Shown here in pieces: positions 7,610 through 30,534 of a stretch of DNA of 64,000 nt. Position 1 is the first letter of the stretch. The number at the start of each line of letters is the position of its first letter. Origin of the DNA: Terriglobia bacterium (GTDB lineage: Bacteria; Acidobacteriota; Terriglobia; UBA7540); NCBI GenBank assembly GCA_030041095.1, contig JASHON010000029.1:1-64000 (forward strand), read 5' to 3'. Below the pieces are notes generated by a model, which was not told the DNA's origin, did no database searches, and saw only the letters and a program-made list of their open reading frames with translations. A program made the position numbers and the translations under genes.

Positions 7610-8284
7610 ATGGCGGGAGCGCATCCTATATTCCAACCTATGAAGAACACGGGTACGCTCGCAGACCGGGCGCTCGCTCTAGTGACAGAAGCTATCTTAA
7701 GCGGCAAAATCAAGCCGGGAGAAAGACTGAATGAAAGCCAGCTTGCTCGCGATTTGCAGATCAGCCGGGCTCCCGTCCGCGAGGCTCTCCGGCGCTTGCA
7801 GCAGGAATCTTTGGTCGTCAACAATCCACGTCGCGGGTTGTTTGTGATCGCACTCGATGACGACGACATTCAGAAGATCAACGGCCTACGCGTAATCCTA
7901 GAGGCGGAAGCGTTACGCCTAGCCCGCAAGAACATCACACCCCAACGCCTCAAGAAGTTGGAGCAGCTCTTGTTGGCAATGGAGCGTAAGGAGGCAACGC
8001 CGACTCAGATGTCAATGCGCGTGGACTTCGAATTCCACCGGACAATCTGGAGTTTCAGTGGAAACGAGTACCTCGAGAAAACTCTTTCGAACCTTACCGC
8101 TCCGCTGTTTGCTCACTCGGTGCGAACGTTGCTACGCGCTGACAAACTTCGTCTGGTCCTTGATTCACATCGGCCGCTCTACGAATTCATTTGTGGTGAG
8201 AACAACCAACCGGCAGAACAGGTCATGTTGGATCACCTGTCAGTTCGCTATCGCGATTCGGCGAAGTTCTCCAGCTTAACCTAA
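7610..8284 (+). CDS. GntR-family regulator, FadR/FCD subfamily
   Basis: A 224-residue repressor-type protein. The N-terminal winged helix contains the GntR signature (AILSGKIKPGERLNESQLA, then SRAPVREALRRL), and the all-helical C-terminal FCD ligand domain has the acidic and histidine positions expected for metal/carboxylate binding (DFEFHRTIW, SHRPLYE). FCD regulators commonly sense small acids produced by the pathway they control. It sits convergent with the DapA-family gene: its TAA (8282-8284) overlaps that gene's stop codon. It is the natural candidate to bind the ATACTGTCGACAGTAT-type palindromes at four promoters of this island. The start may be ATG 7640. Confidence 0.88.
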   Translation: MAGAHPIFQPMKNTGTLADRALALVTEAILSGKIKPGERLNESQLARDLQISRAPVREALRRLQQESLVVNNPRRGLFVIALDDDDIQKINGLRVILEAEALRLARKNITPQRLKKLEQLLLAMERKEATPTQMSMRVDFEFHRTIWSFSGNEYLEKTLSNLTAPLFAHSVRTLLRADKLRLVLDSHRPLYEFICGENNQPAEQVMLDHLSVRYRDSAKFSSLT

Positions 8285-9195
8285 GGAGTGATTGGGGCGC
8301 CGAGATATGGCTTTACGAACCGATCGATGATGCTGGAAACTTTGTATTTTTCTTCGGTCGTCAGTTCCGAAACGTACGGGGCGCCAGTGGCGCTCTCTGC
8401 AATTCCGAGATAGCGCAACGCTTCGTCGAAAGCCCCCCATATATTTCCGCAACGAAATATTTCCCAAGTGGCGATCAGGTCTTCCTGATGCTTTCGCGCA
8501 GTTTCCAGTTCTCCGTTGCGGTACGCACGATAGAGCGCAACGGCAATATGCGGACAGATATTGTGGAGACCGCCGATAAAGCCGTCGCATCCCATCTGTA
8601 AGCCCACTACTATCAGGAATTCGCTCCCGGTGAGAATGGAAAAATCGTCTGACCTGTTCAATTCGATTAGACGTTGAAGATTAATGCAGTCCTGGTTGCT
8701 CTCCTTGATCCCTACGATGTTCGGGACTTCTTCGTGCAAGCGTGCCACCGTTTCCGGATGAATGCTGTTTTTAGTCATTACTGGGTTATCGTAAATAAAC
8801 ATCGGAAGATCAACCGCGGCCGCTATCTCTGAAAAGTATGCGTACAGATTCTCCTGCGTCGCCAAAAAGTAATAAGGCGCGAGTACAGTCAAGTGGGTGA
8901 TTCCCTCGCGGGCAATCGCCTTGGCCTTGAGCTTGGCTCTGGCCGTGCAAGTCTCTCCGACTCCACCCATCACGGGAACTGCGCCATTTGTTTCCGAAAG
9001 AATAACCGAGACTGCGTGGATTTGCTCCTCGTCGGTAAGGAAGGCAAATCCGCCCATGGTGCCGTTAGCCAGGATTCCATTCACTCCTGCATCGATCAGG
9101 TACCGTGTGAGGCGGCGCAAACCAAGTTCATCCACACGGTCGTGGTCCAACAGTGGTGTTCCGATCGGCGGGACGACGCCAGAGATTTTTTTCAC
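8281..9195 (-). CDS. Dihydrodipicolinate synthase/N-acetylneuraminate lyase family aldolase
   Basis: A 304-residue class I aldolase of the DapA/NanA family. The Schiff-base lysine is in NIVGIKES and the catalytic tyrosine in IYDNP, so it should be active. The usual GTTGE substrate loop reads GTMGG, and the YDNP form differs from the YYNIP typical of sialate lyase, so the substrate is probably another 2-keto acid. Expected reaction: reversible cleavage to pyruvate plus an aldehyde. The start is GTG 9195, with AGGAGG 8 bases upstream; the frame stays open far beyond it, but only as a shadow of the divergent hydrolase gene. Divergent from the MBL operon, with an operator overlapping the predicted transcription start. 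Confidence 0.88.
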   Translation of the reverse strand: MKKISGVVPPIGTPLLDHDRVDELGLRRLTRYLIDAGVNGILANGTMGGFAFLTDEEQIHAVSVILSETNGAVPVMGGVGETCTARAKLKAKAIAREGITHLTVLAPYYFLATQENLYAYFSEIAAAVDLPMFIYDNPVMTKNSIHPETVARLHEEVPNIVGIKESNQDCINLQRLIELNRSDDFSILTGSEFLIVVGLQMGCDGFIGGLHNICPHIAVALYRAYRNGELETARKHQEDLIATWEIFRCGNIWGAFDEALRYLGIAESATGAPYVSELTTEEKYKVSSIIDRFVKPYLGAPITP

Positions 9196-9293: not shown

Positions 9294-9436
9294 TAAGCGC
9301 GAGGCATGCTGCGCTACAGGAATTTATATAAATCCCTATAAACATGGTACATATCAATAGACTGCAGCGTGACATAATCGATTCATAGGAGAATTTTTCG
9401 GCTAGCCTTGGATGTTGACTTCTGCTGTTATACGGT

Positions 9437-9452
9437 ATATTGTCGACAACAT
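9437..9452. promoter_or_regulatory. GntR-type operator palindrome, MBL operon
   Basis: ATATTGTCGACAACAT, palindromic with one mismatched pair, overlaps a possible -10 (TATATT at 9436-9441; TTGACT -35 at 9415-9420, short 15-base spacer) and touches the ATG at 9451. Confidence 0.55.
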
Positions 9453-10200
9453 GCGAATTGACGACAAGTTGGCGATCGTTGGAAGCATGCAGTTCGGCAT
9501 ATCCGCGCCGTATGATTGCCATGTATACGCCATTCAGGGCTCCGATGGCATCGTTTTGATCGACGCGGGATGCGGGAATGCAACCGAACGAATTTTGCAG
9601 CGCGTAGCTCACGACCTCTCCGGGGAGCGCGTTGTTGGCCTGCTGATTACGCATTGTCACGTGGACCATTCTGGAGGTGCGTTTGCTATTCGTCAACGCA
9701 CGAATTGTGCAGTATTTGTACCGGAGGCTGGTAAGCGGACGCTCGAGGCCGCAGACATTGAAGCCACGGGATTCCGGAACGCCCAAGATCAGGGCATCTA
9801 TCCGCCGGGACTGCAACTGCATCCCTGCGTCGCCGACGTAACAGTTCGTGACGGGCAGGTCTTTTCTGTAGGAGGGCTGGAATTCACTCCTATGCATGTG
9901 CGTGGCCACAGCCCCGATTCCCACTGCTATCTACTGCGAACGGATGGGCACGTTTGGCTCTTTACCGGCGACGTTGCCTTTTATGGCGGCGTACTCGGAG
10001 TGATCAACGCCGAAGGTTCCAACATGGAAGGCTACCGAGCTGATCTCCACAAGCTCTCAGGCTTGGGCGTCGAAGGGCTATTTCCTGGGCATGGCCTATT
10101 CACGCTGGCCGATGGACAAAAACATATAGATTGCGCTATCGAACAGTCGCAAAAGGGGTTTCTGGGACGCCAGATTGGACAAGGAGATATCCTGTTTTGA
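9451..10200 (+). CDS. Metallo-beta-lactamase-fold hydrolase
   Basis: A 249-residue MBL-fold protein. It has the zinc motif THCHVDHSGG (HxHxDH class), a later histidine in RGHSPDSH, the metal-bridging aspartate in FTGDVAF and a final histidine in PGHG. Such proteins hydrolyse lactones, thioesters or related bonds; the substrate cannot be read from the sequence. An in-frame ATG at 9412 is available, but a promoter-like TTGACT and the operator lie between the two starts, so 9451 (possibly leaderless) is preferred. First gene of the long coupled operon. Its stop overlaps the start of the next gene. Confidence 0.85.
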   Translation: MRIDDKLAIVGSMQFGISAPYDCHVYAIQGSDGIVLIDAGCGNATERILQRVAHDLSGERVVGLLITHCHVDHSGGAFAIRQRTNCAVFVPEAGKRTLEAADIEATGFRNAQDQGIYPPGLQLHPCVADVTVRDGQVFSVGGLEFTPMHVRGHSPDSHCYLLRTDGHVWLFTGDVAFYGGVLGVINAEGSNMEGYRADLHKLSGLGVEGLFPGHGLFTLADGQKHIDCAIEQSQKGFLGRQIGQGDILF

Positions 10201-11231
10201 ACGCTCCGCCGACTCTCGGTGAAGGCCATACGCCACTGCTTGAAAGCGTGATGATTGGGCCGAATCTCAACTTGCGCCTTCTGTTCAAGCTGGAGCTTTG
10301 CAACCCCACCGGTTCCTACAAAGATCGATTTGTCGCGGCGCAGATGGCTGAGTTCCTGCGCTCCCGAGTTCACGCATGTGTAGCGACATCGTCAGGCAAT
10401 ACGGGCGCCTCGCTGGCGGCATTCAGCGCGCGCTACGACGTCCAGTGCACAATCCTGGTCAATGAGTTCGCTCCCGCAAACAAGGTGGCACAAATGCGGG
10501 CTTATGGAGCGAGGGTGTTCCGCGTGCGTGACTTCGTGATTTCGCCCGGAGTCACAGACCGTGTCTACGCGCGATTACACCGGATTTCTGAAGTAAAGCA
10601 CGTCCGTGTTGTCGTTTCCGCGTATAGGTATTGCCCAGACGGGATGCGTGGCGTGGAAGCAATCGCTACCGAATTACTCGTGCAGGTTCCTGCCGGAATA
10701 GACCACGTATTTGTGCCGGTAGGTGGAGGTGGGCTGTATTCGGCGGTGTGTCGCGGATTTTGCCGGAGACCCCCCCGAACTCCTGCAATCCATGCCGTGC
10801 AGCCGGAAGGTTGTGCCACAGTCGTATCGGCTTTTGAAACCGGGCACAACGAAATCATTCCCGTCACTACTACCACGCGGGTCAGCGGTCTTGCGGTTCC
10901 CTTTGATATCGATGCAAGCCTTGCCCTAAGCCATTTGCGCACGTCCGGAGGGCGGGGGATCGCCGTCAGCGACGAGGAAGTATTCACGACGCAGAAACGC
11001 ATGTTGCGTGAAGAAGGAATATGGTGTGAACCCGCAGGTGCCACGGCCCTCGCCGGCTGTCTGCGGGCGTGTGAGCAGGGCTGCATCGAAGCCGGTGCGA
11101 CTGTCGTTTGTCTTGTCACCGGACATGGCTTTAAGGATCCCGAATCCCTCTCCTTGGAGACGCGTGAGACTGAAGCCCCACTCATTCAGGAAAACGATGT
11201 CAACGAAGCTTTATTCGAGGTTAGGGCCTAA
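10197..11231 (+). CDS. Threonine-synthase-like PLP-dependent enzyme (tryptophan synthase beta fold)
   Basis: A 344-residue fold-type II PLP enzyme. The cofactor lysine is in NPTGSYKDR, the substrate loop in SSGNTGAS, and the phosphate-binding loop in PVGGGGLYS. The family includes threonine synthase, threonine dehydratase and diaminopropionate ammonia-lyase, which replace or eliminate a beta or gamma substituent of an amino acid. As part of a catabolic operon, deamination is more likely than threonine synthesis. The start is TTG 10197, overlapping the upstream TGA, with AAGGAG at 10181-10186. The stop shares an A with the next ATG (TAATG), so translation is coupled on both sides. Confidence 0.82.
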   Translation: MNAPPTLGEGHTPLLESVMIGPNLNLRLLFKLELCNPTGSYKDRFVAAQMAEFLRSRVHACVATSSGNTGASLAAFSARYDVQCTILVNEFAPANKVAQMRAYGARVFRVRDFVISPGVTDRVYARLHRISEVKHVRVVVSAYRYCPDGMRGVEAIATELLVQVPAGIDHVFVPVGGGGLYSAVCRGFCRRPPRTPAIHAVQPEGCATVVSAFETGHNEIIPVTTTTRVSGLAVPFDIDASLALSHLRTSGGRGIAVSDEEVFTTQKRMLREEGIWCEPAGATALAGCLRACEQGCIEAGATVVCLVTGHGFKDPESLSLETRETEAPLIQENDVNEALFEVRA

Positions 11232-12691
11232 TGCAGGTTGCTATTGGCGGTATTTATCACGAATCGAACACGTTCTTCTCGCAGGCTACGACTCTGCAGC
11301 ACTTCGCGGAATCTCAGCTCGACTATGGAGAAGATGTTATACCGAAATGGCGGAACTCGTGTTCTGAGATGGGCGGATTCCTAGCGGGTGCGGAACGCTA
11401 CAAGTTCTCCGTCACGCCCACCCTCATGGCTTGGGCGACGCCCTCCGGTGCTGTCACAGACGATACTTTCGAAACGCTTGTCGGCAATTTAGTGGGCCGC
11501 TTGAAATCCATTAGCCCGATGGACGGCGTGTTACTTTCTCTGCACGGCGCTATGGTTTCCGACGCGTATCCCGATGCGGACGGCGAAATCCTACGCCGCG
11601 TGCGTGAAACGATTGGGCCTCATAAGCCCTTGGTGGCAACTGTTGATTTCCACGCGAACCTTACTGAGGAGATGGTGCGATGGCCGAATGCTATCGTCGG
11701 ATACGACACCTACCCTCATATTGACCAAGTCGAGCGCGGGATTGAGGCTGCGGAGATTCTGCATCGTATGCTGCGAGAGGGACTGGCACCGGTCATGGCT
11801 CTCGCGCGCCGTCCCCTCCTGCCCCATATCCTCAGCCAGGTGACCGATAGGCCACCGATGGCTCAGCTCATCGATGCCGCGCACAGATACGAGGGTGAGC
11901 CAGGCCTAGTGAGCATTACAGTCTGCGCTGGGTTCCCTTACACCGATGTGCCGAAGGCCGGATTTGCAGTCGTGGCTGTAGGCGAAGATGCCAAAGCTAC
12001 GCGCGCCGCGGCTGAGAGGCTGGCAGACGAAGCCTGGCAACGCCGCGTTGGATTCGCACGGGAGATCGCTCAACCAGGCGAAGCGGTCCGGCAAGCGATC
12101 TCCCAGTCTGTCGGTCTTTCCTTGCTTATCGATGTGGGAGATAACGTAGGCGCGGGAACGCCGGGCGATGGAACGGTTCTGTTACGGGAGCTCCTAGCAC
12201 AAGAGGCGCAGAACGCGCTCGTATTGCTTTGTGATCCAGAGGCCGTAGCCCTCTGTGTCAGCGCAGGAGTAAGGCGACCGGTCCAACTCAAAGTAGGCGG
12301 AAAGCATGATCGGCTTCATGGCGAACCCATCGAGATCGCCGGGCAGGTTCGGCTACTAAGCGATGGAATCTATCGGAATACCGGGCCGATGCGCGACGGC
12401 GTATGGGAAGATCAAGGCAGGACGGCGGTGGTCGACACGGGGGGAGTAGTAGTGGTGCTTACCGAACGGCGCGCGCCGATGTGGAACTTGCAACAGTTGC
12501 GCGCTCTCGGGATTGAGCCAACGCAACTGCGCATCATCGTTTTGAAGGGTGCCATCGCGTACCGCGCCGCGTACGCTCCCATCGCACAGCGAATCATTGA
12601 AGCGGATACTCCAGGGCTAGCCGCCGCCGATGTTCGGGGATTTCCCTACAAAAGGCTTGATCGACCCATATACCCGCTCGACCCCCTATGA
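11231..12691 (+). CDS. M81-family (MlrC-like) metallopeptidase
   Basis: A 486-residue protein of the MlrC family, named for the enzyme that cleaves linear microcystin products. The N-terminal signature HESNTF (residues 10-15), then TVDFHAN (about 137-143) and YDTYPHID (about 158-165), carry the zinc ligands, and the C-terminal MlrC domain is full length. Most M81 proteins lie in small-molecule catabolic operons and probably hydrolyse amide or similar bonds of modified amino acids and not proteins. No other mlr genes are present, so microcystin degradation is not implied. It overlaps both neighbours by one to four bases. Confidence 0.88.
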   Translation: MQVAIGGIYHESNTFFSQATTLQHFAESQLDYGEDVIPKWRNSCSEMGGFLAGAERYKFSVTPTLMAWATPSGAVTDDTFETLVGNLVGRLKSISPMDGVLLSLHGAMVSDAYPDADGEILRRVRETIGPHKPLVATVDFHANLTEEMVRWPNAIVGYDTYPHIDQVERGIEAAEILHRMLREGLAPVMALARRPLLPHILSQVTDRPPMAQLIDAAHRYEGEPGLVSITVCAGFPYTDVPKAGFAVVAVGEDAKATRAAAERLADEAWQRRVGFAREIAQPGEAVRQAISQSVGLSLLIDVGDNVGAGTPGDGTVLLRELLAQEAQNALVLLCDPEAVALCVSAGVRRPVQLKVGGKHDRLHGEPIEIAGQVRLLSDGIYRNTGPMRDGVWEDQGRTAVVDTGGVVVVLTERRAPMWNLQQLRALGIEPTQLRIIVLKGAIAYRAAYAPIAQRIIEADTPGLAAADVRGFPYKRLDRPIYPLDPL

Positions 12692-13440
12692 ATCTTGAGA
12701 ACAAAGTCGCGATCGTTACGGGAGGCGTAGCGGGTATTGGCTGGGCGACTGCCAACATTTTGGCGGAGCGGGGTGCACGCGTCGTAATCACACGGTTTCC
12801 AGGAACTCACCTGACAGCAGTGGGGTCACCAGAAATATTTCCCGTGGAACTTGATATTAGAGATCAACCCGACGTCAAAAGAGTTATGGATGCCATCGTA
12901 CTGCAATTCGGGCGCATCGACGTGCTCGTCAACAATGCCAGCGTAACTGGCGGCGGTGCCCTTTCGCCGTTTCTCACCATGCCAACCGAGTTTATCCATC
13001 AAGTGGTTGACACAAACTTAAAGGGCACAGTGTACTGCTCGCAGGCGGCGGCCCGGCACATGCTAAAGCAGGGCCGCGGGGGCGTCATCATTCACGTTAG
13101 TTCCGTAGGAGCTTACACTGCGCAGGAGGATGCAAGCCTCTACTGTGCAACCAAGGCTGCCCAGGTCGCCTTAGCGAAGGCAATGGCAATCGAGCTTGCG
13201 CCTCATGCCATTCGCGTGAACGCCGTTGCGCCGGGAGACATTAGAACGGAGGCTAGCGAGCAGGTGGTTCGAGACCCGATTGACCCAACCACAGCGAATA
13301 AATTCTGTCGCTTCACCCCGATGGGGCGACGTGGCCAGCCGGAGGAAGTGGGGCGAACAATCGCATTTCTAGCCTCCGACGATGCGTCGTTCATCACCGG
13401 CGCGACAGTGATTGTGGATGGGGGATTCCTTTCATATTAG
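12688..13440 (+). CDS. Short-chain dehydrogenase/reductase (first of two)
   Basis: A 250-residue classical SDR. It has the NAD(P)-binding TGGVAGIG, the structural NNAS, catalytic serine in HVSSVG and the Tyr-Lys pair in YCATK, and it ends with the usual GxxxxVDGG. Expected reaction: oxidation or reduction of a hydroxyl/keto group on the pathway intermediate. The ATG overlaps the M81 stop (ATGA). It shares only general family features with the second SDR at 20732-21535. Confidence 0.9.
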   Translation: MNLENKVAIVTGGVAGIGWATANILAERGARVVITRFPGTHLTAVGSPEIFPVELDIRDQPDVKRVMDAIVLQFGRIDVLVNNASVTGGGALSPFLTMPTEFIHQVVDTNLKGTVYCSQAAARHMLKQGRGGVIIHVSSVGAYTAQEDASLYCATKAAQVALAKAMAIELAPHAIRVNAVAPGDIRTEASEQVVRDPIDPTTANKFCRFTPMGRRGQPEEVGRTIAFLASDDASFITGATVIVDGGFLSY

Positions 13441-13451
13441 GCGGCTTGCTC

Positions 13452-14444
13452 ATGACCTCTGGGACACATTGCAAAGCCGAAAGACTACGGGTCACCGATT
13501 TCGACCCTGAGCGCTTCGCTCGCGGATGTAAGAAAGCGCTTCTGTTGGAACTGAACGCAGGTTCCGCGAGGCTTGAATTGCCCGTCTCATTATTCCGAGG
13601 AGCCCACGATGGCCCGGTTCTCGCCATCACGGCCGGCGTGCACGGCGACGAATTTGAAGGTGTACAGGCGGTGCTCGAAATATGCGCGGAGGCCGATCCC
13701 ACTCGAATACACGGGACCGTGATCGCCGTTCCTGTGGCCAATCCTCCCGCATTCTGGAACGGCACGCGCACGAACCCCCTGGACGAAAGTGATCTGGCAC
13801 GCGCTTTCCCTGGCCGTGCTGATGGGACTGCAACGGAGATTATCGCCTTCCATCTCGCTCATTCCGTCATCGCCCGAGCTGACTTCTACATTGATCTGCA
13901 CACGGCGGGCACGAAGCTGCTGATGCCCTGCATGGTTGGTTATGACGCCAACGATCGGCGTTCTGGTGAAGCAGCGCGTACTTTCGGGGCGCCAATTATC
14001 TGGGGTCATCCGAGTGTTGGTGCCGGCCGCACGATCTCTTTTGCCACTTCCTGTGGCATCCCCTGGCTCTATACGGAGGCGCCTGGTGGCGGTTCTTCGG
14101 CGAAGGAGGACATCGAGGTTTTCAAGCGCGGACTATTCAACCTTCAGCAACATTTAGGTATCCTGCGCGGGCGAATTGGTGCGATGCCCGCCATACAGCG
14201 CGTGCTCTTCGGAGATGGGGACGTTGATTCGGGTGTTGCCGCGACACAATGCGGGTTCTTCATGCCCTCTGTTGAGCTATTGCAGGAGGTCCGCAAGGGC
14301 CAGCAACTAGGCCGCACGATCGATCTGCACAGCGAAGTGGTGGAGTGTTTCGAATCGCCGCGAGACGGTGTTGTCGGAATGGTTCGAGTCTTCCCCCTTG
14401 TCCGTCCCGGCGACTCAGTCTGCTTGCTGACAAGTGGCCAATGA
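13452..14444 (+). CDS. Succinylglutamate desuccinylase/aspartoacylase family amidohydrolase
   Basis: A 330-residue M14-like zinc hydrolase. Zinc ligands H64 and E67 lie in GVHGDEFEG and H150 in DLHTAG. The family removes acyl groups (succinyl, acetyl, others) from the nitrogen of amino acids. Together with the GNAT protein at the operon's end this suggests an N-acylated intermediate. ATG 13452 follows the SDR stop by 11 bases; a TTG six bases upstream is also in frame. The stop overlaps the next start (ATGA). Confidence 0.85.
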   Translation: MTSGTHCKAERLRVTDFDPERFARGCKKALLLELNAGSARLELPVSLFRGAHDGPVLAITAGVHGDEFEGVQAVLEICAEADPTRIHGTVIAVPVANPPAFWNGTRTNPLDESDLARAFPGRADGTATEIIAFHLAHSVIARADFYIDLHTAGTKLLMPCMVGYDANDRRSGEAARTFGAPIIWGHPSVGAGRTISFATSCGIPWLYTEAPGGGSSAKEDIEVFKRGLFNLQQHLGILRGRIGAMPAIQRVLFGDGDVDSGVAATQCGFFMPSVELLQEVRKGQQLGRTIDLHSEVVECFESPRDGVVGMVRVFPLVRPGDSVCLLTSGQ

Positions 14445-15451
14445 AGGAGGCAAGAACAACTCGCATATCGGAACAGTGGAGCCGTCGAGAATTCATCCAA
14501 GCGGGAGCGCTTCTGTCGACGGTGATTGCGTCGCCACGTGCAGTTTCTGCCAAACACATTCCATCACACATGTTGCCTGCAGCCTTCTATCGGCGACTGC
14601 GTGGCCCGATTGTTTCCATTCCGACGCCATTCCGCAAAGACTTTCAACTCGATCCGGAAGGATTGAAGAATATCATCGAGTTGGGCCTACGTAATGGCGT
14701 TACTATTTTCGACCTTACAGCCGGCGACAGCCAATATGCTTACCTTTCTTATGAGGAAGTCAAAGAGCTTGGCCGATTGACAACCGCAGACGTTGGAAGT
14801 CGGGGGATGACCATTATAGGCACCAATGGATGGTGGCTTGAACGCACCGTCGAGTTTGCAAAGTACGCGGAGTCAATCGGCGCGGCAGCCCTCCAGGTTC
14901 TGAAGCCGAGCGGAGCAGATGATGTTGACCTTGTGGATTACTACCGCCAGGTTGCCCGGAGCACTTCCCTTCCGATCGTGCTACACGGGAACTTCCCAAC
15001 CCCCGTTCTGGCGCGTCTGGCTGAGATCCAGTCAATCGTCGCGCTTAAGGAAGATGTCAGTCTGGCGTATTACATCAATGGAATTATTCGTTTCGGACGC
15101 CGGATCAATTGCTTTTCCGGAGGAGGACTCGATTGGTTCCTGGTCGGCCAGCCGTATGGTGCGACGGCGTATTTTGACTCCTACGCAACGTTTGCACCGG
15201 AAATTACGCTCCGATTCTGGCGTGCTGTGCAAACGGCAGACTACGCGACCGAAGTGGACATCGTCGAGCAATACGACCATCCTTTCATCCAGAATTTCTC
15301 AGCGTCGTTTTGGCGTGCGACATTGGAGTATTTCGGTGTGGCGCTCAGGTACCTGAGGCCGCCTCAACACAGCTATACCGACGCCGAAATGGCAGAAGTG
15401 AAGCGCTTCTATGACAAGCTCGGAGTATTTCCAAAGAGGCATCTTTTCTGA
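14441..15451 (+). CDS. Tat-exported DapA-family protein with altered active site
   Basis: A 336-residue DapA-fold protein beginning with a twin-arginine signal (SRREFIQAGALL, cut probably after AVSA near residue 38). The Schiff-base lysine position is kept (VALKED), but the tyrosine of the usual YNxP motif is replaced (HGNFP), and GTTGE reads LTAGD. It may therefore be a binding protein or catalyse a different reaction outside the cytoplasm. The ATG overlaps the upstream stop. Export of a DapA-type protein is unusual. The frame is open further upstream, but only as an overlap with the preceding gene. Confidence 0.8.
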   Translation: MKEARTTRISEQWSRREFIQAGALLSTVIASPRAVSAKHIPSHMLPAAFYRRLRGPIVSIPTPFRKDFQLDPEGLKNIIELGLRNGVTIFDLTAGDSQYAYLSYEEVKELGRLTTADVGSRGMTIIGTNGWWLERTVEFAKYAESIGAAALQVLKPSGADDVDLVDYYRQVARSTSLPIVLHGNFPTPVLARLAEIQSIVALKEDVSLAYYINGIIRFGRRINCFSGGGLDWFLVGQPYGATAYFDSYATFAPEITLRFWRAVQTADYATEVDIVEQYDHPFIQNFSASFWRATLEYFGVALRYLRPPQHSYTDAEMAEVKRFYDKLGVFPKRHLF

Positions 15452-15459: not shown

Positions 15460-16452
15460 ATGTGGGCGCTTAGGTCGGGGACATTATTGCTTTTCGCGGG
15501 CGTAGGGCTCTTCGCAGTCAAAGGCGCTAGAAAGAAGCTTGTTTGGACCGAGAGAGCAGAATTGCCGCGTCCTGTCGCTGGATATATGGCTGGAGTGAGC
15601 CATGGGAATCTCTTGATTGTTGGCGGCACTTATTGGGAACACGGGGAAAAACAGTGGACGGACCGAGTCCAGATATTCAGCCCATACAAGAATTCCTGGA
15701 CCAACGGTCCCGTCTTGCCGCAGCCGCGGAGTGATGCAGCAAGCGTCGTTCTCAAGGGTCGCGTTTACGTCTTTGGCGGAGGCGCCGGCGATGCGGTCCG
15801 GCGGGACTGCCTAGCGCTCGAGCAAGGGGCCTGGAAGAGTGTGCCTGAGGCCGAGCTGCCTGAACCTCGGCTCTATGCCAATGCCGTCGTTGACCGAGGC
15901 TGGGTTTACCTGCTCGGTGGGATGTCTGACGCGCGAGACTACACGACAGCAAGCAGCGACTTCTGGCGCTGGCGTCCGGGAGAAGAAGGCTGGCAAGAAC
16001 TGCCTCCGCTACCTGGTCCAGGACGCATTAACTTTGCCATCGCTCAAATTGATGGAGACGTGTACGTTTTTGGCGGCGCAACCGCGGCCGGGGCGGCCGA
16101 TGTCAGAAACCTGAATGACGCCTACCGGTTCGACCCCGCCGACAGAAGATGGGAGCATCTTCACAATCTGCCTGTAGCTAACCGTTCATGGTGGTCTGTC
16201 AGCTTGGGCGATAGTGCGCTAGTGCTTGCCGGCTACACGACTACTTATGCGGACACAGTCTATCGGTACATACCACAAAGCGGCCTGCGGAAAATGGGGA
16301 CTCTACCTCACTCCCTGGCTGATCCCAAATTTTTCCTCATCAAAAACGTGATCGTAGGAACGGGTGGAGAAGCAGGACCTAGCGTGCGCGGCAAATGGAC
16401 TCTGCAGGCCATTATCCCCCAAAGCTGGTTGAAGGAGGATCGACCGCGGTGA
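15460..16452 (+). CDS. Kelch-repeat beta-propeller, NanM-like mutarotase candidate
   Basis: A 330-residue exported protein: an N-terminal hydrophobic segment (about 4-20) followed by five to six kelch blades (repeated VYVFGG/VYLLGG ends with W at blade starts). Size, export and genetic context resemble N-acetylneuraminate mutarotase NanM, which converts the released alpha anomer of sialic acid. No sequence feature proves that activity, and galactose-oxidase-type or purely structural kelch proteins are alternatives. GAGGAG lies about 5 bases before the ATG, 8 bases after the previous stop. Confidence 0.65.
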   Translation: MWALRSGTLLLFAGVGLFAVKGARKKLVWTERAELPRPVAGYMAGVSHGNLLIVGGTYWEHGEKQWTDRVQIFSPYKNSWTNGPVLPQPRSDAASVVLKGRVYVFGGGAGDAVRRDCLALEQGAWKSVPEAELPEPRLYANAVVDRGWVYLLGGMSDARDYTTASSDFWRWRPGEEGWQELPPLPGPGRINFAIAQIDGDVYVFGGATAAGAADVRNLNDAYRFDPADRRWEHLHNLPVANRSWWSVSLGDSALVLAGYTTTYADTVYRYIPQSGLRKMGTLPHSLADPKFFLIKNVIVGTGGEAGPSVRGKWTLQAIIPQSWLKEDRPR

Positions 16453-16488: not shown

Positions 16489-17241
16489 ATGATTCAGAGG
16501 CAAGGAGCGCAAACTGGCTGTACTATAATCGAACCGGAAATCATACTCATTCCTGCTGGGCCGGTCACGCTTGGAGTTCCGGATTTCCCAAGCAACTCAA
16601 AACTGCCGCATCCTTGGCATAAGAAGACCGTCCACGTACCCGCTTTTGGCGTTGGCAAATGCGCGGTGACCGTCAGGGAGTACCTTGTTTTTGGAAAATG
16701 CTATGCAATTAGTGAAGAGCTGCTTAAAGATCCTCGGTTTCAAGATCCCCAAGCTCCTGCGGCCTACGTCAGTTGGATTGACGCGGTGCGGTATACACAA
16801 TGGCTCGCCCGCGAAACCGGAACAGCTTATCGAATGTTGCGCGATGCGGAATTTGAGAAAGCAGCGCGTGGTGGGCTGGACGGCAAACGGTTTCCGTGGG
16901 GCGATGAAAGCCCCGACGGGCGTTGCGACTATAACAATCCAAACGGCGCTCCCCGTCCTGTGGGCTCCTTCGCCCCCAATGGATATGGCGCTTTTGACAT
17001 GGCGGGATCGATATGGTCGTGGTGCGAGGAAACTTACGAACAAGTTTCGCCCGACCGCTCCAAGATGTGCTACGAGGCCACCCTGGTCCGCGACACAAGA
17101 CTCAATCCAATCTGTCGCGGTGGGTCATTCAAGAGCGAGGACATCACAGTCTTAAACTGTGCATACCGGCACGAAGACCCCATCGATGGACGCTTCAATT
17201 GCATCGGCTTCCGTGTGGCACTGGACCTACCGTCCTCATGA
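16489..17241 (+). CDS. SUMF1/formylglycine-generating-enzyme-fold protein
   Basis: A 250-residue protein spanning the whole SUMF1 domain: an N-terminal PAGPVTLG strand, YVSWIDAVRYTQWL, FPWGD, PVGSFAPNGYGAFDMAGSIWSW and RGGSF. Of the two active-site cysteines of true formylglycine-generating enzyme, only the second seems to have a counterpart (NCAYR); the position five residues earlier is isoleucine. It is thus unlikely to activate sulfatases, and no sulfatase is in the window. A GGAGGA site 8 bases before the ATG supports the start. The stop overlaps the next gene. Confidence 0.82.
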   Translation: MIQRQGAQTGCTIIEPEIILIPAGPVTLGVPDFPSNSKLPHPWHKKTVHVPAFGVGKCAVTVREYLVFGKCYAISEELLKDPRFQDPQAPAAYVSWIDAVRYTQWLARETGTAYRMLRDAEFEKAARGGLDGKRFPWGDESPDGRCDYNNPNGAPRPVGSFAPNGYGAFDMAGSIWSWCEETYEQVSPDRSKMCYEATLVRDTRLNPICRGGSFKSEDITVLNCAYRHEDPIDGRFNCIGFRVALDLPSS

Positions 17242-18632
17242 AGACTGTCGACCGGCTACAGAATTCGGATGTACTTTCTCGAATGTTGACACGCGAATTA
17301 GAGTTTGAGCGGCGTAATCGGAGTATCGTCAGCAAAACACAGGCCTCTCTGCAGCGTTATCAGCGCGCTCAGCGATCATTGGCCGGTGGCGTTTCAAGCG
17401 GTCTGCGGCGCTCCGTACGCCCATACCCGCTTTATTTTTCGTCTGGCCGCGGCGCCCAAATCACAGATGTAGACAGCAACACCTATATCGATTATGGACT
17501 TGCCTGGGGACCACTGATCTTAGGCCACTCGCCTCAGTGCGTAGTTGATTCTATTGCCAGGCAAGCTTCCCGCGGCTTTACCTTCGGCGCCCAGCACGAT
17601 CTTGAGTTCGAGGTTGCAGAACGCCTGATCGAAACTATTCCTTGCGCTGAGCTGGTCTGCTTTGCCAACAGCGGGACGGAAATCGTGCAAGTGGCGTTGA
17701 GGCTGGCCCGGGCATTCACCGGCCGTCCGAAGTTCCTCAAATTCGAAGGTCACTACCATGGATGGGACGACTCGGTGTTGGTGAGTTATCACCCAACTTT
17801 TTCCGAGATCTCACTAGCAGAAGGAGGTCCCATCCCCGTTGGTAAAGGCCAGCGCCCTCATGATGACGTCTTCGTTGTCGAATGGAATGACCCCGAGGGC
17901 GTGGAGGACACATTCGCGCAGCACAGGGACGAAATCTCGGCCGTGATTTGTGAGCCGCTGCTTTGCAACAGTGGATGCATCCCCCCTGAACCCGGATTCT
18001 TGCAATTCCTGCGTGATATCACTGCCCGAACTGGCGCGCTCCTCATCTTCGATGAAGTCATCACGGGCTTTCGCCTCGGCCTACAGGGCGCTCAAGGCCG
18101 GTACGGTGTCGTGCCTGATCTGGCAGCGTATGCCAAGGCCGTCGGAGGCGGCCTCCCGCTCAGCGTCCTTGCAGGAAAGCGGGATTTTATGGAGCTGGTT
18201 GCCGACGGCAGAGTCGTTCATGCAGGAACTCTGAATGGGAACCCCCTTGTTCTGGCGGCGGCGAAGGCGACGATCGAAATACTGGCCCACAACCACGGTT
18301 CGGCTTACAACGATCTGTCAGAACGAGGCCATAGGTTGATGGAGGGGATCGGGGCACGGCTCAAAGAACACGGCTTCGATGTGGTTGTTGCAGGTGAGCC
18401 TGCGGTCTTTCATGTTTCCTTTATGAAAAGCCCCGCGAAGCGCTATCGCGATCTACTCGGCTCCAACAACGCTCTATACGCAGATTTCGCCCTCGCACTG
18501 CTCGACGAGGGAGTAGCCGTCCTGCCCGATGGTCGTTGGTACGTCTCGCTTGCCCATGACGATGAGGTGATCGATAGAACGCTGACGGCTGTCGAGCGCG
18601 CAATCTCACTGACAGGGAGATCGACACAATGA
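17238..18632 (+). CDS. Glutamate-1-semialdehyde aminomutase-like class III aminotransferase
   Basis: A 464-residue PLP enzyme of the HemL-like class III group. It has the phosphate-binding NSGTE, GHYHGWDD, the cofactor aspartate in IFDEV and the Schiff-base lysine in AYAKAVGGG. It is longer at the N-terminus (about 40 residues) than HemL. The setting, a catabolic operon with a second aminotransferase, argues against tetrapyrrole synthesis. It more likely transaminates or moves an amino group on the pathway compound. The start ATG 17238 overlaps the SUMF1 stop (ATGA); its stop overlaps the next ATG in the same way. Confidence 0.85.
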   Translation: MKTVDRLQNSDVLSRMLTRELEFERRNRSIVSKTQASLQRYQRAQRSLAGGVSSGLRRSVRPYPLYFSSGRGAQITDVDSNTYIDYGLAWGPLILGHSPQCVVDSIARQASRGFTFGAQHDLEFEVAERLIETIPCAELVCFANSGTEIVQVALRLARAFTGRPKFLKFEGHYHGWDDSVLVSYHPTFSEISLAEGGPIPVGKGQRPHDDVFVVEWNDPEGVEDTFAQHRDEISAVICEPLLCNSGCIPPEPGFLQFLRDITARTGALLIFDEVITGFRLGLQGAQGRYGVVPDLAAYAKAVGGGLPLSVLAGKRDFMELVADGRVVHAGTLNGNPLVLAAAKATIEILAHNHGSAYNDLSERGHRLMEGIGARLKEHGFDVVVAGEPAVFHVSFMKSPAKRYRDLLGSNNALYADFALALLDEGVAVLPDGRWYVSLAHDDEVIDRTLTAVERAISLTGRSTQ

Positions 18633-19582
18633 CAGGGGAACCCGCAGTATACCTTCGCGGACGAATGTTGCCCGCCTCGGAAGCAAGCATTTCGATCTTT
18701 GACTTTGGCATCGTTTTGGGCGCGACGATCACCGATCTGCTGCGAACGTTCAATCACCATCCTTATCGACTCGAGGATCACGTTCACCGGTTCTACGATT
18801 CATGCAAATACGCACGGATCAAGCCGCCGATTTTGGCGAAGGAGACGATGCGGATCACCGAAGAGCTCGTCAAACACAATGCCCCGTTGGCAGGGCCGGG
18901 AGGCGAGTTGGCCGTCGTTTACTTCATCACTCCAGGCGAGAATTTCGTCTATGCCGGCTCGGCCGCGGCTGGCGGAGCCGATCTTACGCCCACTTTCTGC
19001 ATTCATTCTTTTCCATTGCCCTTTCATCTCTTCCGGCGATTCTTCGAGACTGGATTGCACCTCGTGACGCCCTCCACGCGCCACGTTCCGCCGGAGTGCA
19101 TTGATCCCAAAATAAAGAACCGCAGCCGCCTGCATTGGTGGCTCGCCGAACAGGAAGCCCATTTGGTCGATGGGTCCGCCATGCCCTTGCTCCTTGATTT
19201 GCAGGGGAACATTACGGAAACCAGCGGGTCTAACTTTTTGCTGGTAAAAAAGGGCATCGTATACTCCCCAGCGCCGCGCAACATCCTGCTCGGCGTAAGT
19301 CGCAAAGTGGTGATCGAACTTTGTTCCAAGCTGGGAATTAGCTTTGTCGAGCGGGATCTTCAAACCCACGATGCCATGACCGCGGACGAAGCCTTCGTAA
19401 CCACGACGCCCTATTGCATGGCACCGGTCACAAAGGTCAACGGAGTGACCACAGGCGACGGCACCTCCATCGGTGGGCCCATTTACCGCCGTTTGCTGCG
19501 AGCCTGGAGTGACGAAGCGGGAGTGGATATCCGCGCGCAGATTCTTGGGCCTCAGGGACCAAACAGCGTGGCGTCTGCTTGA
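18629..19582 (+). CDS. Class IV aminotransferase (branched-chain/D-amino-acid type)
   Basis: A 317-residue fold-type IV PLP enzyme. The N-terminal half has the conserved FDFG and RLEDHVHR helix, the lysine lies in DPKIKNRSR, and the cofactor phosphate region includes ITETSGSNFLLV. The family includes branched-chain and D-amino acid aminotransferases and aminodeoxychorismate lyase; the substrate side cannot be assigned. It overlaps the GSA-type aminotransferase by 4 bases, so the two are made together. Confidence 0.83.
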   Translation: MTGEPAVYLRGRMLPASEASISIFDFGIVLGATITDLLRTFNHHPYRLEDHVHRFYDSCKYARIKPPILAKETMRITEELVKHNAPLAGPGGELAVVYFITPGENFVYAGSAAAGGADLTPTFCIHSFPLPFHLFRRFFETGLHLVTPSTRHVPPECIDPKIKNRSRLHWWLAEQEAHLVDGSAMPLLLDLQGNITETSGSNFLLVKKGIVYSPAPRNILLGVSRKVVIELCSKLGISFVERDLQTHDAMTADEAFVTTTPYCMAPVTKVNGVTTGDGTSIGGPIYRRLLRAWSDEAGVDIRAQILGPQGPNSVASA

Positions 19583-19619
19583 GGCCACGGAGGAAACAAC
19601 CTGCGGGAGGAGGAATGAC

Positions 19620-20735
19620 GTGAACGTCCTGGTTATTGGGGGCGGCTCCATGGGACGCCGCCGTTTGCGCGATCTCTCTTATCTTTGTGCCGGCGGCGTG
19701 CTGCTATTCGAACCGTCGGAAGAACGTTGCGCGGAGGTTTCGAAATCTTTTGGAGTGGCTGGGTTTACGGATTTGCAAACGGCGCTGGGACATCAACCTG
19801 ACGCGCTGGTCGTTTCGACTCCGCCAGCATTCCACGAGCCCTACGTGCGCCTGGCAATCGAGCGGGGTCTTCACGTATTCTCCGAAGTCCCCTTCCTGCT
19901 CGAATATGGCGTCCTAAAGGAGATTGCTGAACAAAGCCCGACGAAGAAACTCGTCATGGGCGTGAGTCACACGATTCGTTACTACCCGCCCTACCGTTTA
20001 ATCCACGATTTGATCAATGAAAATGCGATTGGCAAGGCGCTCTATGTCGAATACAGCTTGGGGAATTATTTGCCCGACTGGCATCCCTACGAGGACTACC
20101 GCAAGTTCTACGCCAACGATCAGAAACTAGGCGGCGCGGGGATGGATATGTTATTACACGAAATCAGTGCCATCCAATGGTGGCTCGGAAATATTTCGCA
20201 CGTGCAAGCACGGCTTTCAAAAGTCAGCACGCTTGAGATCGCGGGACCGGATACCCACGATGTGCTCATGCGATTTGCCAGTGGGACCGTCGGCTTCTTC
20301 CATCACGATGTGATTGAGCGCGGCACGATCGGCCGGCATGTGAGAATCGTGGGGGAATACGGAACGATTGAGTGGCACCAGAACCAGCCCGCAGTCCGCG
20401 TCTATCATGGCAAGGAAGCACGGGAAGAGATCCTTGGATACGAGAAGGCCGCTGATTGGGGCTCGGCCATGGAGGCGAGCCGGCGTGCTGCGGAGTTGGT
20501 CGCCCAAAAACGTGCTGGTTCCGGCGTTATCCCCACGGCAAGCGCGCCCAGCTTCACCTACGAATCTTGTTATTTGCGAGAAATCTCTCACTTTCTCTCT
20601 GCCGCGCGCGGAGAGGCTGCGTACGCAGGTTGCACTCTCGTCGACGAGCTGAATAATGTCGCTGCTTTCGAGAGTATTTTGGAGAGCGCCGAAACGGGCC
20701 GAGAGCTGGCCGTTCAGTCGAGGTTGAACGTTTGA
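19620..20735 (+). CDS. Gfo/Idh/MocA-family oxidoreductase
   Basis: A 371-residue NAD(P)-dependent dehydrogenase with N-terminal Rossmann motif VIGGGSMGRRR and the EKP-equivalent SEVPF, followed by the two-domain C-terminal sheet with GAGMDMLLHEI (the common GG-xxxDxxxH metal- or substrate-facing helix). The family oxidises hydroxyls on sugars and cyclitols. The start is GTG 19620, set by AGGAGG at 19608-19613; the frame extends upstream into the previous gene. Its TGA overlaps the TTG of the next gene. Confidence 0.85.
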   Translation: MNVLVIGGGSMGRRRLRDLSYLCAGGVLLFEPSEERCAEVSKSFGVAGFTDLQTALGHQPDALVVSTPPAFHEPYVRLAIERGLHVFSEVPFLLEYGVLKEIAEQSPTKKLVMGVSHTIRYYPPYRLIHDLINENAIGKALYVEYSLGNYLPDWHPYEDYRKFYANDQKLGGAGMDMLLHEISAIQWWLGNISHVQARLSKVSTLEIAGPDTHDVLMRFASGTVGFFHHDVIERGTIGRHVRIVGEYGTIEWHQNQPAVRVYHGKEAREEILGYEKAADWGSAMEASRRAAELVAQKRAGSGVIPTASAPSFTYESCYLREISHFLSAARGEAAYAGCTLVDELNNVAAFESILESAETGRELAVQSRLNV

Positions 20736-21535
20736 AGCAAGAACGTGCGCCGCGATCAACCTTTCGTTTGTTCGTTCTAGAGGGCAAGACGGCCCTGGTT
20801 TCCGGTGGCGCTGGTATTTACGGCAGCCAAATCTCGCGGGCCCTCGCGGAGTGCGGAGCGCACGTCATCATCGCTTCGCGCCACTTGGATCAATGCGAAA
20901 AGCGTGCACGTTCCTTGCGCAGGGCAGGCCTGCGTGCGGACGCAGACGAGGTTGACCTGAGCTCGGAACAATCCATCCGTAAGCTCCGTGACCGCATCCT
21001 GTCAAAACACGGCCGCCTCGACGTGCTGGTCAACAATGCAGTCGCCCGGGCGGGCGGCGATCTCGATCACACGACGGTTGACGAATGGGAGTCGACGATG
21101 AAGGTCAACTCCACAGGTTTGTTTCTCGCGTGCCAGATTCTGTCGGCGCCGATGAAACAGGCTCGCTCAGGCTCCGTTATCAATATTGCATCAATCTACG
21201 GAATGGTCGGCCCCGACTTCTCCATTTACAAGGGGACGGAGCTCACGATGCCGGTGAACTATGCTTTCGCAAAGGGCGGAATGATCAATCTGACGCGGTA
21301 TCTCGCGAGCTATCTCGCCCCCTACAACGTTCGCGTGAACTGCCTCTCTCCCGGAGGCTTTCGCACTTCGGCGACGCCTCCTCAGTTTGTTCCGAAATAT
21401 TCCAAGCGTACGCCGCTGCGGCGGATGGCTGAACCGGGCGATATTAATGGCCCTGTTGTGTTTCTTGCGTCTGACGCATCCCGATACATCACAGGGCAGA
21501 ACATTCCGGTCGACGGAGGATGGACGGCCATCTGA
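20732..21535 (+). CDS. Short-chain dehydrogenase/reductase (second)
   Basis: A 267-residue SDR with cofactor motif SGGAGIYGS, NNAV, catalytic serine in NIASIYG, a Tyr-Lys pair (NYAFAK) and the VDGGW end. It starts at TTG 20732 inside the upstream TGA (TTGA). Together with the first SDR and the Gfo/Idh/MocA enzyme, it gives the operon three oxidoreductases. Confidence 0.87.
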   Translation: MKQERAPRSTFRLFVLEGKTALVSGGAGIYGSQISRALAECGAHVIIASRHLDQCEKRARSLRRAGLRADADEVDLSSEQSIRKLRDRILSKHGRLDVLVNNAVARAGGDLDHTTVDEWESTMKVNSTGLFLACQILSAPMKQARSGSVINIASIYGMVGPDFSIYKGTELTMPVNYAFAKGGMINLTRYLASYLAPYNVRVNCLSPGGFRTSATPPQFVPKYSKRTPLRRMAEPGDINGPVVFLASDASRYITGQNIPVDGGWTAI

Positions 21536-21626: not shown

Positions 21627-22463
21627 ATGGCGAGTTCAGAAGTGCGTGTAGTTGAGACCCAGGAGGAATTCCTCGGCTGTGAGAATCTACAGCAGCTTGT
21701 TTGGGGGAAGCTCAGTATTGCCTCCGAAGCCCTGATTGCTGTGCAGAAGTCCGGCGGATTGGTGATTGGATACTTCCTCGCCCGAAAAGTAGTTGGTTGT
21801 CTCGTTGCCTTGCTCGGTCAACGGAATCGACGCGTGATCCATTGGTCCCATATGATGGCGGTAGCTCCGGACTATCGCGACCGAGGATTCGGGTTCCAAA
21901 TGAAGCTTGCGCACCGAAAACTTGCGCTCGAGCGAGGGATTCGCTCGATTTGCTGGACCTATGACCCGCTTCAAACCCGAAACGCTACCCTGAACATATC
22001 GCGTCTGGGCGCGAAGCCCGAGGAATACTGTGTGGACTACTACGGCCATTTTGCGAGCATCATTGAAAAAGGGCTACCGAGCGACAGGTTCCTTGTGAAT
22101 TGGAAAATCGCATCCTCTCCGGTGCATCAGCGGCTTCGCGGCGGCTGGCCGCCCTTTAGGCCGCGAGATCTGCCTTTGATCAACCGCACCAAGGTAAATC
22201 GCAGAGGCTTCCTCGAGAATGACAAAATTTTACTTGCCCTGCGCGAGAAAATGCTTGCTTTTGAAGTCCCCACGAATACGGATAGAATGCGGAAAATGAA
22301 TCTTCAGCTTGCTCGACAGTGGCGTCTGGACACGCGAGAGATTATGACGAGATACCTGGAAGCTGGATATTGCGTCGAGGACTTCGCCCCACCGTCCGGA
22401 GCTACCGGCATGAGGACCTTCTACATCCTCAAGAAAGGCCGCCGCGACGCCAGAAACGCTTAG
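21627..22463 (+). CDS. GNAT acyltransferase, predicted N-acyl(succinyl)transferase type
   Basis: A 278-residue protein with an N-terminal GNAT domain: HMMAVAPDYRDRGFGFQMK contains the acyl-CoA pyrophosphate loop (Q/RxxGxG/A class), and TYDPLQTRNATLNISRLGA the later conserved segment. It resembles the COG3375 group, in which some members N-succinylate amino acids beside N-acylamino acid racemase. The C-terminal about 110 residues are family specific. It follows the second SDR by 91 bases and is probably the last gene of the operon. Pairing with the desuccinylase-type enzyme at 13452-14444 is suggestive. Confidence 0.75.
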   Translation: MASSEVRVVETQEEFLGCENLQQLVWGKLSIASEALIAVQKSGGLVIGYFLARKVVGCLVALLGQRNRRVIHWSHMMAVAPDYRDRGFGFQMKLAHRKLALERGIRSICWTYDPLQTRNATLNISRLGAKPEEYCVDYYGHFASIIEKGLPSDRFLVNWKIASSPVHQRLRGGWPPFRPRDLPLINRTKVNRRGFLENDKILLALREKMLAFEVPTNTDRMRKMNLQLARQWRLDTREIMTRYLEAGYCVEDFAPPSGATGMRTFYILKKGRRDARNA

Positions 22464-22508: not shown

Positions 22509-24371
22509 CTAAACGTCTCCGAAGTACGCATTTTTCGTCATCACGACACCGTTAACTGTGACGTCCAGAGATCTCAGGAGGACACCGCCGTCAGGCGTCA
22601 TGGCCGTCGACCGTAGCCGGAGGTAGTTGACCCCGTTCGCGCGGCGGTGCTCTTGAATTACTCCTGCGGCTCGCCCATAGACGGAAACTCGACACGAGCG
22701 ATCCCCTGTGCTCCAGTCAAGTGTAAGCTCGAACCAGCGTTCTTCGGGCAACTTGAGATTTTCCAGGCTCTCTCGATTCGTCCGGATGGGCAGGTTGAAT
22801 ACGTTAAAGAAGCGATCTTCGAGGTCCCAAGGCACCGAGAAATAGTCGGTCAGCCCAAGCAGGATCCCGTCGCAGTTCCTGCGAATGAGCATCTCTGCTT
22901 TCAATTGTCCAAGCGAGCCAGCCGGGAAATTCCAGACTGCCCCAGCCGGCCACTTCGGGTCCGCTTTTTGCACCTTGAGCACCTTGCTCCCCGGGTTTTC
23001 AGGATCGGGCTGCAACTCAACCCCTTTGCTGCCGAATACTGACCAATCGTCGAGCCCGTGGGAGAAGTCTGTTGACTGGCGGGTCTCGAGAACCCAGGCG
23101 GGATCAAGAAGCCGGAAGCTGCGCACACTTCCATTGGGCACCACCCAATTCGAGAAGAGAACCCTGCCATCGGTCAATAGAGTTGGGAAAGTATACGATA
23201 GGCCGTAATCGGCCTCCGGCGGTGGCGGCTCGTTTCTCAAGCGATCGCGAGCAACTTCGCGAAACCCGTGCCACGTCCGTCCCTCATCGTGTGAAATCGC
23301 GACATGCAGGACATATCGTCCGCCTTGTGCGTAGGGGTATCGGAGGCAGGCATTTGAGAACAAGAGGATGCTCCCGTCTTTCAACCTAAGCAGGCCAGCG
23401 GGCGAATCTGAGGAAATGAGCGAGGTTGGTCGCGGCGGGGTCCAATGTACGCCGCCGTCAGCCGAAAAGGACTCGTAAAAGCGTCCAAGTTGCGTACGAA
23501 TCAGCATCCACACTCGGCCGTCACGTAACTCAAGGACGACCGGCTCATTCGCCCCATACTCACTGAGGCCTCCAGTTTCAACGGAAAGAGTGTCTGGCGA
23601 TTGCTGCCAAGAGGCGCCAGCGTCATCGGAATATAGGGCCGAAATGTTATACGCGCCGACAAAGGTAAAATCCAGAAATCCTCCACCACGGTTACCGTCC
23701 CAGGACCGGTCATGCGCTGAAGAGAAGGGTAATAGCAGGCGTCCGTCGCGCAGTTGAATGCCCGAAAGCAGATCATCCCCATGGCCCTTCCAAATTCGTT
23801 TCGGCTCATGCCACTGGCGACGGTTGGCGCGGGACCGTGCATGCCAGATGTCCAGGATTTCTCCTGAACGGGTCGCCGGCCCTTCTTCACTTTTCGGATA
23901 CAAAACGCCTGAATTGCCATCGCACAGGATGAAAATTTGAATCTCACCGTCACGATCCACCAACGCATTGAAGATCGCGAATCTGCCCTCGGCCTTCGGC
24001 CATTGGAACAAATCCCTCGCCGCGGACCAAGTGCGTCCGTCGTCCATTGAATAATGGCCCTGCATGATTTGTTGTCCTTCCTGCAGGGCAATCGAGAGGG
24101 CAACGATTTCCCCATCTGGAAGTTGGAGAGCGCGGTACATATTCTCCCGGAAAGGATAATGAGCCTTGAGGGAAGCCGTGAAAGTCGAGACGATCTCTGG
24201 TGGCTTTATGGAAGTGTGCGTGGGCGATTTCGGTTCGACGAATCGCGCCGTTCGCGATGAACTAGCCGACCATAGTCTCTGGTCGGTCAACAGATTCGTA
24301 CCCTCAAGCCCCGAAACCGACGCAACGACCTGCAGAAGAGTGCGACGAGACAACTGTTTTGTGGTGGTCAT
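22509..24371 (-). CDS. Tat-exported sialidase-like BNR protein with C-terminal beta-sandwich
   Basis: A 620-residue protein with a twin-arginine signal (SRRTLLQVV), then a six-bladed sialidase-type propeller (about 60-420) with Asp boxes SMDDGRTW, YSDDAGASW, SADGGVHW and SHDEGRTW. The EPVVLELRDGRVWMLIRT strand carries a glutamate and an arginine at positions conserved in GH33-like proteins. The C-terminal about 180 residues form a second domain beginning FSHGLDDWSVFG. The same two-domain architecture occurs at 33914-35707 and 35789-37516. Sialidase activity is unproven; other exo-acting glycosidases share this fold. AGGGGA precedes the ATG. Last gene of the leftward TonB operon. Confidence 0.8.
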   Translation of the reverse strand: MTTTKQLSRRTLLQVVASVSGLEGTNLLTDQRLWSASSSRTARFVEPKSPTHTSIKPPEIVSTFTASLKAHYPFRENMYRALQLPDGEIVALSIALQEGQQIMQGHYSMDDGRTWSAARDLFQWPKAEGRFAIFNALVDRDGEIQIFILCDGNSGVLYPKSEEGPATRSGEILDIWHARSRANRRQWHEPKRIWKGHGDDLLSGIQLRDGRLLLPFSSAHDRSWDGNRGGGFLDFTFVGAYNISALYSDDAGASWQQSPDTLSVETGGLSEYGANEPVVLELRDGRVWMLIRTQLGRFYESFSADGGVHWTPPRPTSLISSDSPAGLLRLKDGSILLFSNACLRYPYAQGGRYVLHVAISHDEGRTWHGFREVARDRLRNEPPPPEADYGLSYTFPTLLTDGRVLFSNWVVPNGSVRSFRLLDPAWVLETRQSTDFSHGLDDWSVFGSKGVELQPDPENPGSKVLKVQKADPKWPAGAVWNFPAGSLGQLKAEMLIRRNCDGILLGLTDYFSVPWDLEDRFFNVFNLPIRTNRESLENLKLPEERWFELTLDWSTGDRSCRVSVYGRAAGVIQEHRRANGVNYLRLRSTAMTPDGGVLLRSLDVTVNGVVMTKNAYFGDV

Positions 24372-30462: not shown

Positions 30463-30522
30463 TGTTTCTCCTCCAGAAACGATTTGGTGTTGGCATGTGG
30501 TAGTGGCCAGCCCACACAACCG

Positions 30523-30534
30523 ACTGCCGACAGT
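30523..30534. promoter_or_regulatory. GntR-type operator, TonB promoter
   Basis: ACTGCCGACAGT differs by one base from the core of the 9241-9256 palindrome, with an overlapping GTCGAC at 30533-30538. It lies immediately after the -10 element of the leftward promoter, so a bound protein would block initiation. Confidence 0.55.

Follow-up and report, generated by a model that had tools for sequence, protein, structure and literature searches.

Enzymes of the DapA/N-acetylneuraminate lyase (NAL) family are textbook cytoplasmic proteins. The window analysed here (a single stretch of 64,000 nucleotides, taken as a whole, from a soil-type acidobacterium) contains a gene for a DapA-fold protein that an initial annotation described as carrying a twin-arginine signal and as having lost its catalytic tyrosine. 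This raises the question of whether the protein is an enzyme with an altered active site that acts outside the cytoplasm, or a periplasmic binding protein built on an enzyme fold. The gene occupies positions 14441–15451 of the forward strand and encodes 336 amino acids; its ATG start at 14441 overlaps the stop codon of the upstream deacylase gene (ATGA), and its own stop codon ends at 15451. The DHDPS profile PF00701 matches the product with 61.2 bits against a gathering cut-off of 22.1, which places it in the superfamily and bears out the coordinates, reading frame and DapA family initially assigned. The product scores well short of the cut-off in every curated NCBIfam model of the DHDPS family. 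An AlphaFold model computed from a 30-sequence alignment (pLDDT 88.6, pTM 0.84) predicts the eight-stranded (β/α)8 TIM barrel of the DHDPS/NAL superfamily, starting at residue 55, with most of the signal region at low confidence. The best Foldseek matches of this model are DHDPS/YagE/NAL structures (E down to 7e-18), with TM values of 0.71–0.78 against DapA and N-acetylneuraminate lyase structures, and the list also includes the keto-deoxy-galactarate dehydratase 4ur7.

The exported, tyrosine-less DapA-fold protein is a member of an Acidobacteriota clade, from which 25 proteins were sampled, and is not a one-off. The clade is split from other DHDPS members in the tree with a support of 99/97 when one odd row (L097) is left out. 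E values for its members in a class-wide profile search ran from 1e-149 to about 1e-34, with a step to the next family at 1e-31, although the boundary is not sharp. Its distribution is patchy, with about 20 of the 399 genomes of the class holding a member, and relatives are found in other classes. A scan of 84,980 species, the reach of which was limited by its two peptide patterns, returned 10 loci, all of them from Acidobacteriota. A plasmid search gave weak matches, mostly from rhizobia (23–26% identity among the matches listed), of which one is annotated as kdgD and two as ‘dihydrodipicolinate synthase family’. In one Acidobacteriota family (L075, L076 and L079–L082) a clade member that has neither signal nor tyrosine lies near, and on the same strand as, a DHDPS-family gene from a different branch that retains the tyrosine.

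The N-terminus of the protein reads SRREFIQ, followed by a hydrophobic stretch and a cleavage-like AVSA-K site. This Tat signal, with its SRREFI motif, spans residues 14–38 (positions 14480–14554, forward strand) and has the sequence QWSRREFIQAGALLSTVIASPRAVSA. When the protein is aligned with four clade members of 41–64% identity to it, R15 and R16 are invariant and the remainder of the leader varies. The twin-arginine motif, hydrophobic region and Ala-x-Ala-like site of a Tat substrate are thus all present, and TatC is encoded in the genome (226 bits). A search for further Tat-bearing DapA-fold proteins, which had been suggested initially, applied a uniform motif and hydrophobicity test to open frames and found a Tat-like signal in 17 of the 25 clade members versus 2 of the 116 other family members, and these two may fall upstream of the true gene starts. 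Two more clade members (L092 and L099) have Sec-type leaders, and L075, L080, L082, L093 and L095 are without any signal. Tat export, as predicted from the leader, is well supported by this conservation across the clade, and the twin-arginine signal noted at the outset stands. It is very improbable that the protein is instead cytoplasmic, with a true start further downstream (for example the GTG at codon 27) or a signal that goes unused: no strong Shine–Dalgarno site was seen 5′ of the ATG and several clade members do lack a signal, but the start overlaps the preceding gene, and the twin arginines and following hydrophobic stretch are conserved in the orthologues amid flanking residues that vary. 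Tat-like leaders are present on at least five other proteins of the window (37479–38705, 46324–47946 and 48147–50627 on the forward strand; 22509–24371 and 39254–42175 on the reverse strand), several of them with sequence of BNR or glycoside type; the lineage thus seems to make frequent use of Tat export.

In the barrel itself, the Schiff-base lysine, found in 59 of the 60 family members that were compared, corresponds in the alignment to K203. This residue lies at the end of strand 6 (residues 199–204), where the superfamily has its lysine, and a Schiff-base role is predicted for it. The lysine opens a K203-E204-D205 motif (positions 15047–15055, forward strand) that places an acid two residues on, at K+2. 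Predicted strand 5 ends in His182 (codon 14984–14986, forward strand), which stands where the YNxP tyrosine would be; the alignment was searched for a catalytic tyrosine and shows none there. The retention of the lysine and loss of the YNxP tyrosine agree with the initial annotation, and structure prediction of the active site, a check it had proposed, puts His182 and K203 at the ends of strands 5 and 6, respectively. The equivalent of the GTTGE carboxylate-binding loop is AGDSQ (residues 94–98, positions 14720–14734, forward strand); the LTAGD originally read there is two residues out of register. In the alignment, which is ungapped over this loop, Thr44 and Thr45 of DapA fall on Gly95 and Asp96, Tyr107 is replaced by Gly, Arg138 meets a gap and Tyr133 corresponds to His182, so that every DapA helper residue is absent. 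The loss of the Thr44/Thr45 and Tyr107 equivalents, with Asp96 at the usual place of the carboxylate-binding threonine, makes a pyruvate-type ligand uncertain. Backbone amides bind the carboxylate in KdgD (G53 and T54) and in KdaD (N52 and F53) (PMC13398020), and by analogy such binding at Gly95-Asp96 is still possible.

The disappearance of the canonical helpers Tyr133, Thr44/45, Tyr107 and Arg138, in an exported protein whose gene cluster includes a transporter, could be taken to indicate a pseudoenzyme, that is, an exported solute-binding or sensor protein whose barrel and lysine bind a keto or sugar acid near the symporter or the outer-membrane receptor. The pattern of conservation makes this unlikely. 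None of the 12 core clade members departs from K203 or E204, 11 of them have D or E at residue 205, and the catalytic face of the barrel is more conserved than the opposite face (0.73 versus 0.62, p 0.016) and more conserved than random positions (p 0.002). Moreover, KdaD shares both the missing tyrosine and the position of the acid, and is catalytically active (PMC13398020). Of the two options originally offered, a periplasmic binding protein is thus disfavoured and a new activity is the better one. Residue 182 is His in 10 of the 12 core members, and the geometry of Asp205, His182 and K203 is predicted from the strand ends of the model and the alignment.

Across the family, absence of the tyrosine is coupled to an acid at K+2. 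Among 81 unselected family members from a phylum-wide PF00701 search, 78 have the Schiff-base lysine; 71 of these have the tyrosine and no acid at K+2, seven lack the tyrosine and have Glu at K+2, and none is discordant (Fisher p 4e-10, n = 78, shared ancestry not corrected for). The same split was seen in the first set, among its 34 lysine-bearing family members outside the clade. At least three regions of the tree show the trade: KdaD-like proteins such as L012 and L004 (Gln at the tyrosine position, K-L-E), proteins with Phe and K-D-E, and the present clade. L012, of the K-L-E type, matches the solved L-KDA dehydratase 7c0c at 8e-35. In KdaD itself the tyrosine is absent and the base is E174, two residues after K172 (PMC13398020). 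Tyrosine loss alone is therefore already known in the DapA/NAL family, and the initial annotation was right that the catalytic tyrosine is replaced, here by His182, a change that is not unusual in the family. The Phe-bearing, K-D-E proteins include an Acidobacteriota DHDPS-family branch (L027–L035, L037 and L038) that is apparently another tyrosine-for-acid trade. Three further PF00701 proteins (L179, L188 and L191) have Arg, Ile and Val at the aligned lysine position, and are either candidate pseudoenzymes or misaligned.

Within the clade, 19 of the 25 members follow the trade. The exceptions are L092 and L099, with Lys at the tyrosine position and His at K+2, L088–L090, with His at K+2, and L098, which has both Tyr and Asp. 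These data bear on a variant of the enzyme reading, in which an exported aldolase or lyase would use His182 alone in place of the tyrosine and Asp205 would be structural only. The strand-end location of His182 and its prevalence among the core members would suit such a variant, but other clade members have Asn, Ala or Gln at this position and still keep D or E at K+2, and we regard it as distinctly improbable. The trade pattern, together with the K203-E204-D205 motif and the conserved catalytic face, favours a changed acid–base group over a dead site. For annotators, the rule that absence of the strand-5 tyrosine predicts an acid at K+2 offers a simple test of a changed mechanism versus a dead site.

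The reading that we prefer, at a probability of roughly one half, is that the protein is an exported class I (lysine Schiff-base) enzyme, a lyase or dehydratase that is probably active and in which Asp205 would serve in acid–base catalysis. From a computational description of fold, residues, Tat-type signal and gene cluster we infer activity, the roles of Asp205 and His182, a substrate and an order of steps, as follows. The folded barrel would leave the cytoplasm by the Tat route, and the proton-shuttle role of the missing tyrosine would pass to Asp205 at K+2, probably with His182, a role modelled on the K+2 Glu of L-2-keto-3-deoxyarabonate dehydratase. The sodium symporter of the cluster would then import the product, and its processing would be completed by the cytoplasmic aldolase of the NAL family together with the deacylase, the PLP enzymes and the dehydrogenase.

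The cluster in question (forward strand unless stated) begins with a GntR/FCD regulator (7610–8284; Pfam), whose orthologues beside NAL genes are 65–73% identical, and a second DapA/NAL-family protein on the reverse strand (8281–9195; Pfam 190 bits), which is cytoplasmic and 68–77% identical to its counterparts in the same cluster elsewhere. The latter had been described as a normal family member; it does keep both Tyr and Lys, but reads GTMGG and not GTTGE, and so is not fully canonical. Next come a metallo-β-lactamase (MBL)-fold protein (9412–10200; Pfam), a fold-type II PLP enzyme (PALP) resembling threonine synthase and ammonia-lyase (10131–11231), an M81 (MlrC-like) metallohydrolase (11231–12691) and a short-chain dehydrogenase (SDR; 12688–13440), the last three assigned by Pfam and NCBIfam, and all four recurring in orthologous clusters. 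Then follows an AstE/AspA-type deacylase (13446–14444; nearest curated family DoeB, below cut-off), whose gene immediately precedes that of the exported DapA-fold protein in four orthologous clusters. Downstream lie a Kelch β-propeller with an N-terminal signal (15460–16452; Pfam, NCBIfam), the orthologues of which also have signal-like N-termini, a GSAM-like class III aminotransferase with an approximate start (17325–18632; Pfam Aminotran_3; 62–70% identical in orthologous clusters) and a class IV aminotransferase of BCAT/D-amino-acid type (18629–19582; 76–80% in two orthologous clusters). Further on are a BNR (sialidase-like) protein with a Tat-like leader (22509–24371, reverse strand; PF13088), whose nearest solved chains are exo-α-sialidases (E 1e-29), a TonB-dependent-receptor-like outer-membrane β-barrel (27142–30540, reverse strand; PF25183, 577 bits; 45–47% identical in orthologous clusters) and a sodium:solute symporter (30856–32406; PF00474; 63–66% in orthologous clusters), whose nearest solved chain is 5nv9 (E 3e-67). 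Segments 16489–17241 (FGE domain), 19617–21535 (Gfo/Idh, SDR) and 21627–22463 (GNAT-like) are likely local additions, as counterparts were not found at orthologous positions elsewhere.

This order is wholly or largely kept in four other genomes, represented by L073/L102 (G714; probably the same contig, as both have 27,284 bases), L074 and L205 (both from G679), L101 and the Luteitalea locus L103. It runs from GntR, NAL (opposite strand), MBL, PALP, M81, SDR and AspA to the exported DapA-fold gene, and on through Kelch, class III and class IV aminotransferases, symporter, outer-membrane receptor and BNR proteins; in L103 neither M81 nor a class IV aminotransferase was detected. The DapA-fold orthologues in these genomes are 54–66% identical, and their neighbours include a sodium symporter as well as exported proteins of the Kelch and sialidase-like types. 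G036 carries a rearranged cluster, in which a Tat-type member of lower identity (27%) is found next to M81. Some loci, such as those in G431, G512, G683, G743 and G535, have a NAL orthologue but not the exported gene, and most of them retain several Kelch, AspA, PALP, BNR or receptor genes. The exported protein therefore seems to be an accessory component of a larger, recurrent catabolic module.

What this module degrades is indicated loosely. The PDB name of 5nv9 is ‘putative sodium:solute symporter’, and we take it to be the sialic-acid transporter SiaT. This match, the sialidase relatives of the BNR protein and a Kelch protein that matches NanM in part only (the solved structures closest to it are of other Kelch proteins) together give a loose pointer to a keto-sugar acid as the pathway compound. 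The sialic-acid-like link drawn initially thus has circumstantial backing from BNR, Kelch and symporter genes, but neither NanE nor GlcNAc 2-epimerase was detectable in the genome, and ordinary Neu5Ac (sialic-acid) catabolism is not supported. The same missing genes, with M81, the AspA-type deacylase, two aminotransferases and a PLP enzyme in the cluster, would accord with an amino-acid or peptide derivative as the substrate, a choice compatible with a lyase or dehydratase; the recurrence of the BNR/sialidase-like, Kelch and SSS symporter genes with the cluster speaks against it, and it seems to us less likely than not. Tentatively, the clade as a whole may consist of lysine Schiff-base enzymes outside the Acidobacteriota cytoplasm, which with a tyrosine-free Lys-His-Asp site would act on a sugar acid, or on a keto compound related to one, by cleavage or dehydration ahead of its uptake. 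If this is true, part of a keto-acid pathway would run outside the cytoplasm, in the hands of an exported clade that has both an altered active site and a conserved cluster. The literature searched, which covered few subscription journals, yielded no example of an exported DapA-fold protein, no description of an extracytoplasmic step of this kind for the DapA/NAL superfamily and none of Tat export combined with clade-wide tyrosine loss and a conserved cluster.

Among known systems, KdaD (L-KDA dehydratase) resembles the protein in its active site, as a DHDPS-superfamily enzyme with a Schiff-base lysine, no tyrosine and an acid at K+2 (PMC13398020), the last two features being matched here by His182 and Asp205. 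KdaD-like proteins differ in their Gln at the tyrosine position, their Glu at K+2 and the MTG type of their strand-8 motif, and those compared here show no export signal; the protein stands apart from them in the unrooted tree (99/95 at the root split) and is not assigned to KdaD. Its best curated match is KdgD (5-dehydro-4-deoxyglucarate dehydratase; PRK03620 and TIGR03249), at 69.6 and 57.5 bits far under the cut-offs of 278 and 374, and KdgD keeps the tyrosine (PMC13398020); the protein is not assigned to KdgD either. DapA and N-acetylneuraminate lyase share the fold and the lysine with the protein, which differs in lacking their Tyr, Thr-Thr and Arg motifs and in being exported. Membership of DapA (EC 4.3.3.7) is rejected on 42.2 bits to TIGR00674 (cut-off 206.15) and the absence of Tyr133, Thr44-Thr45, Tyr107 and Arg138, and that of N-acetylneuraminate lyase because TIGR00683 and NF003164 are not among its NCBIfam matches. 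The Tat route also exports other enzymes of cytoplasmic-type folds, and glucose-fructose oxidoreductase offers the parallel of a folded, metabolic-type enzyme that travels by Tat as the DapA-fold protein is predicted to do, but with a different fold.
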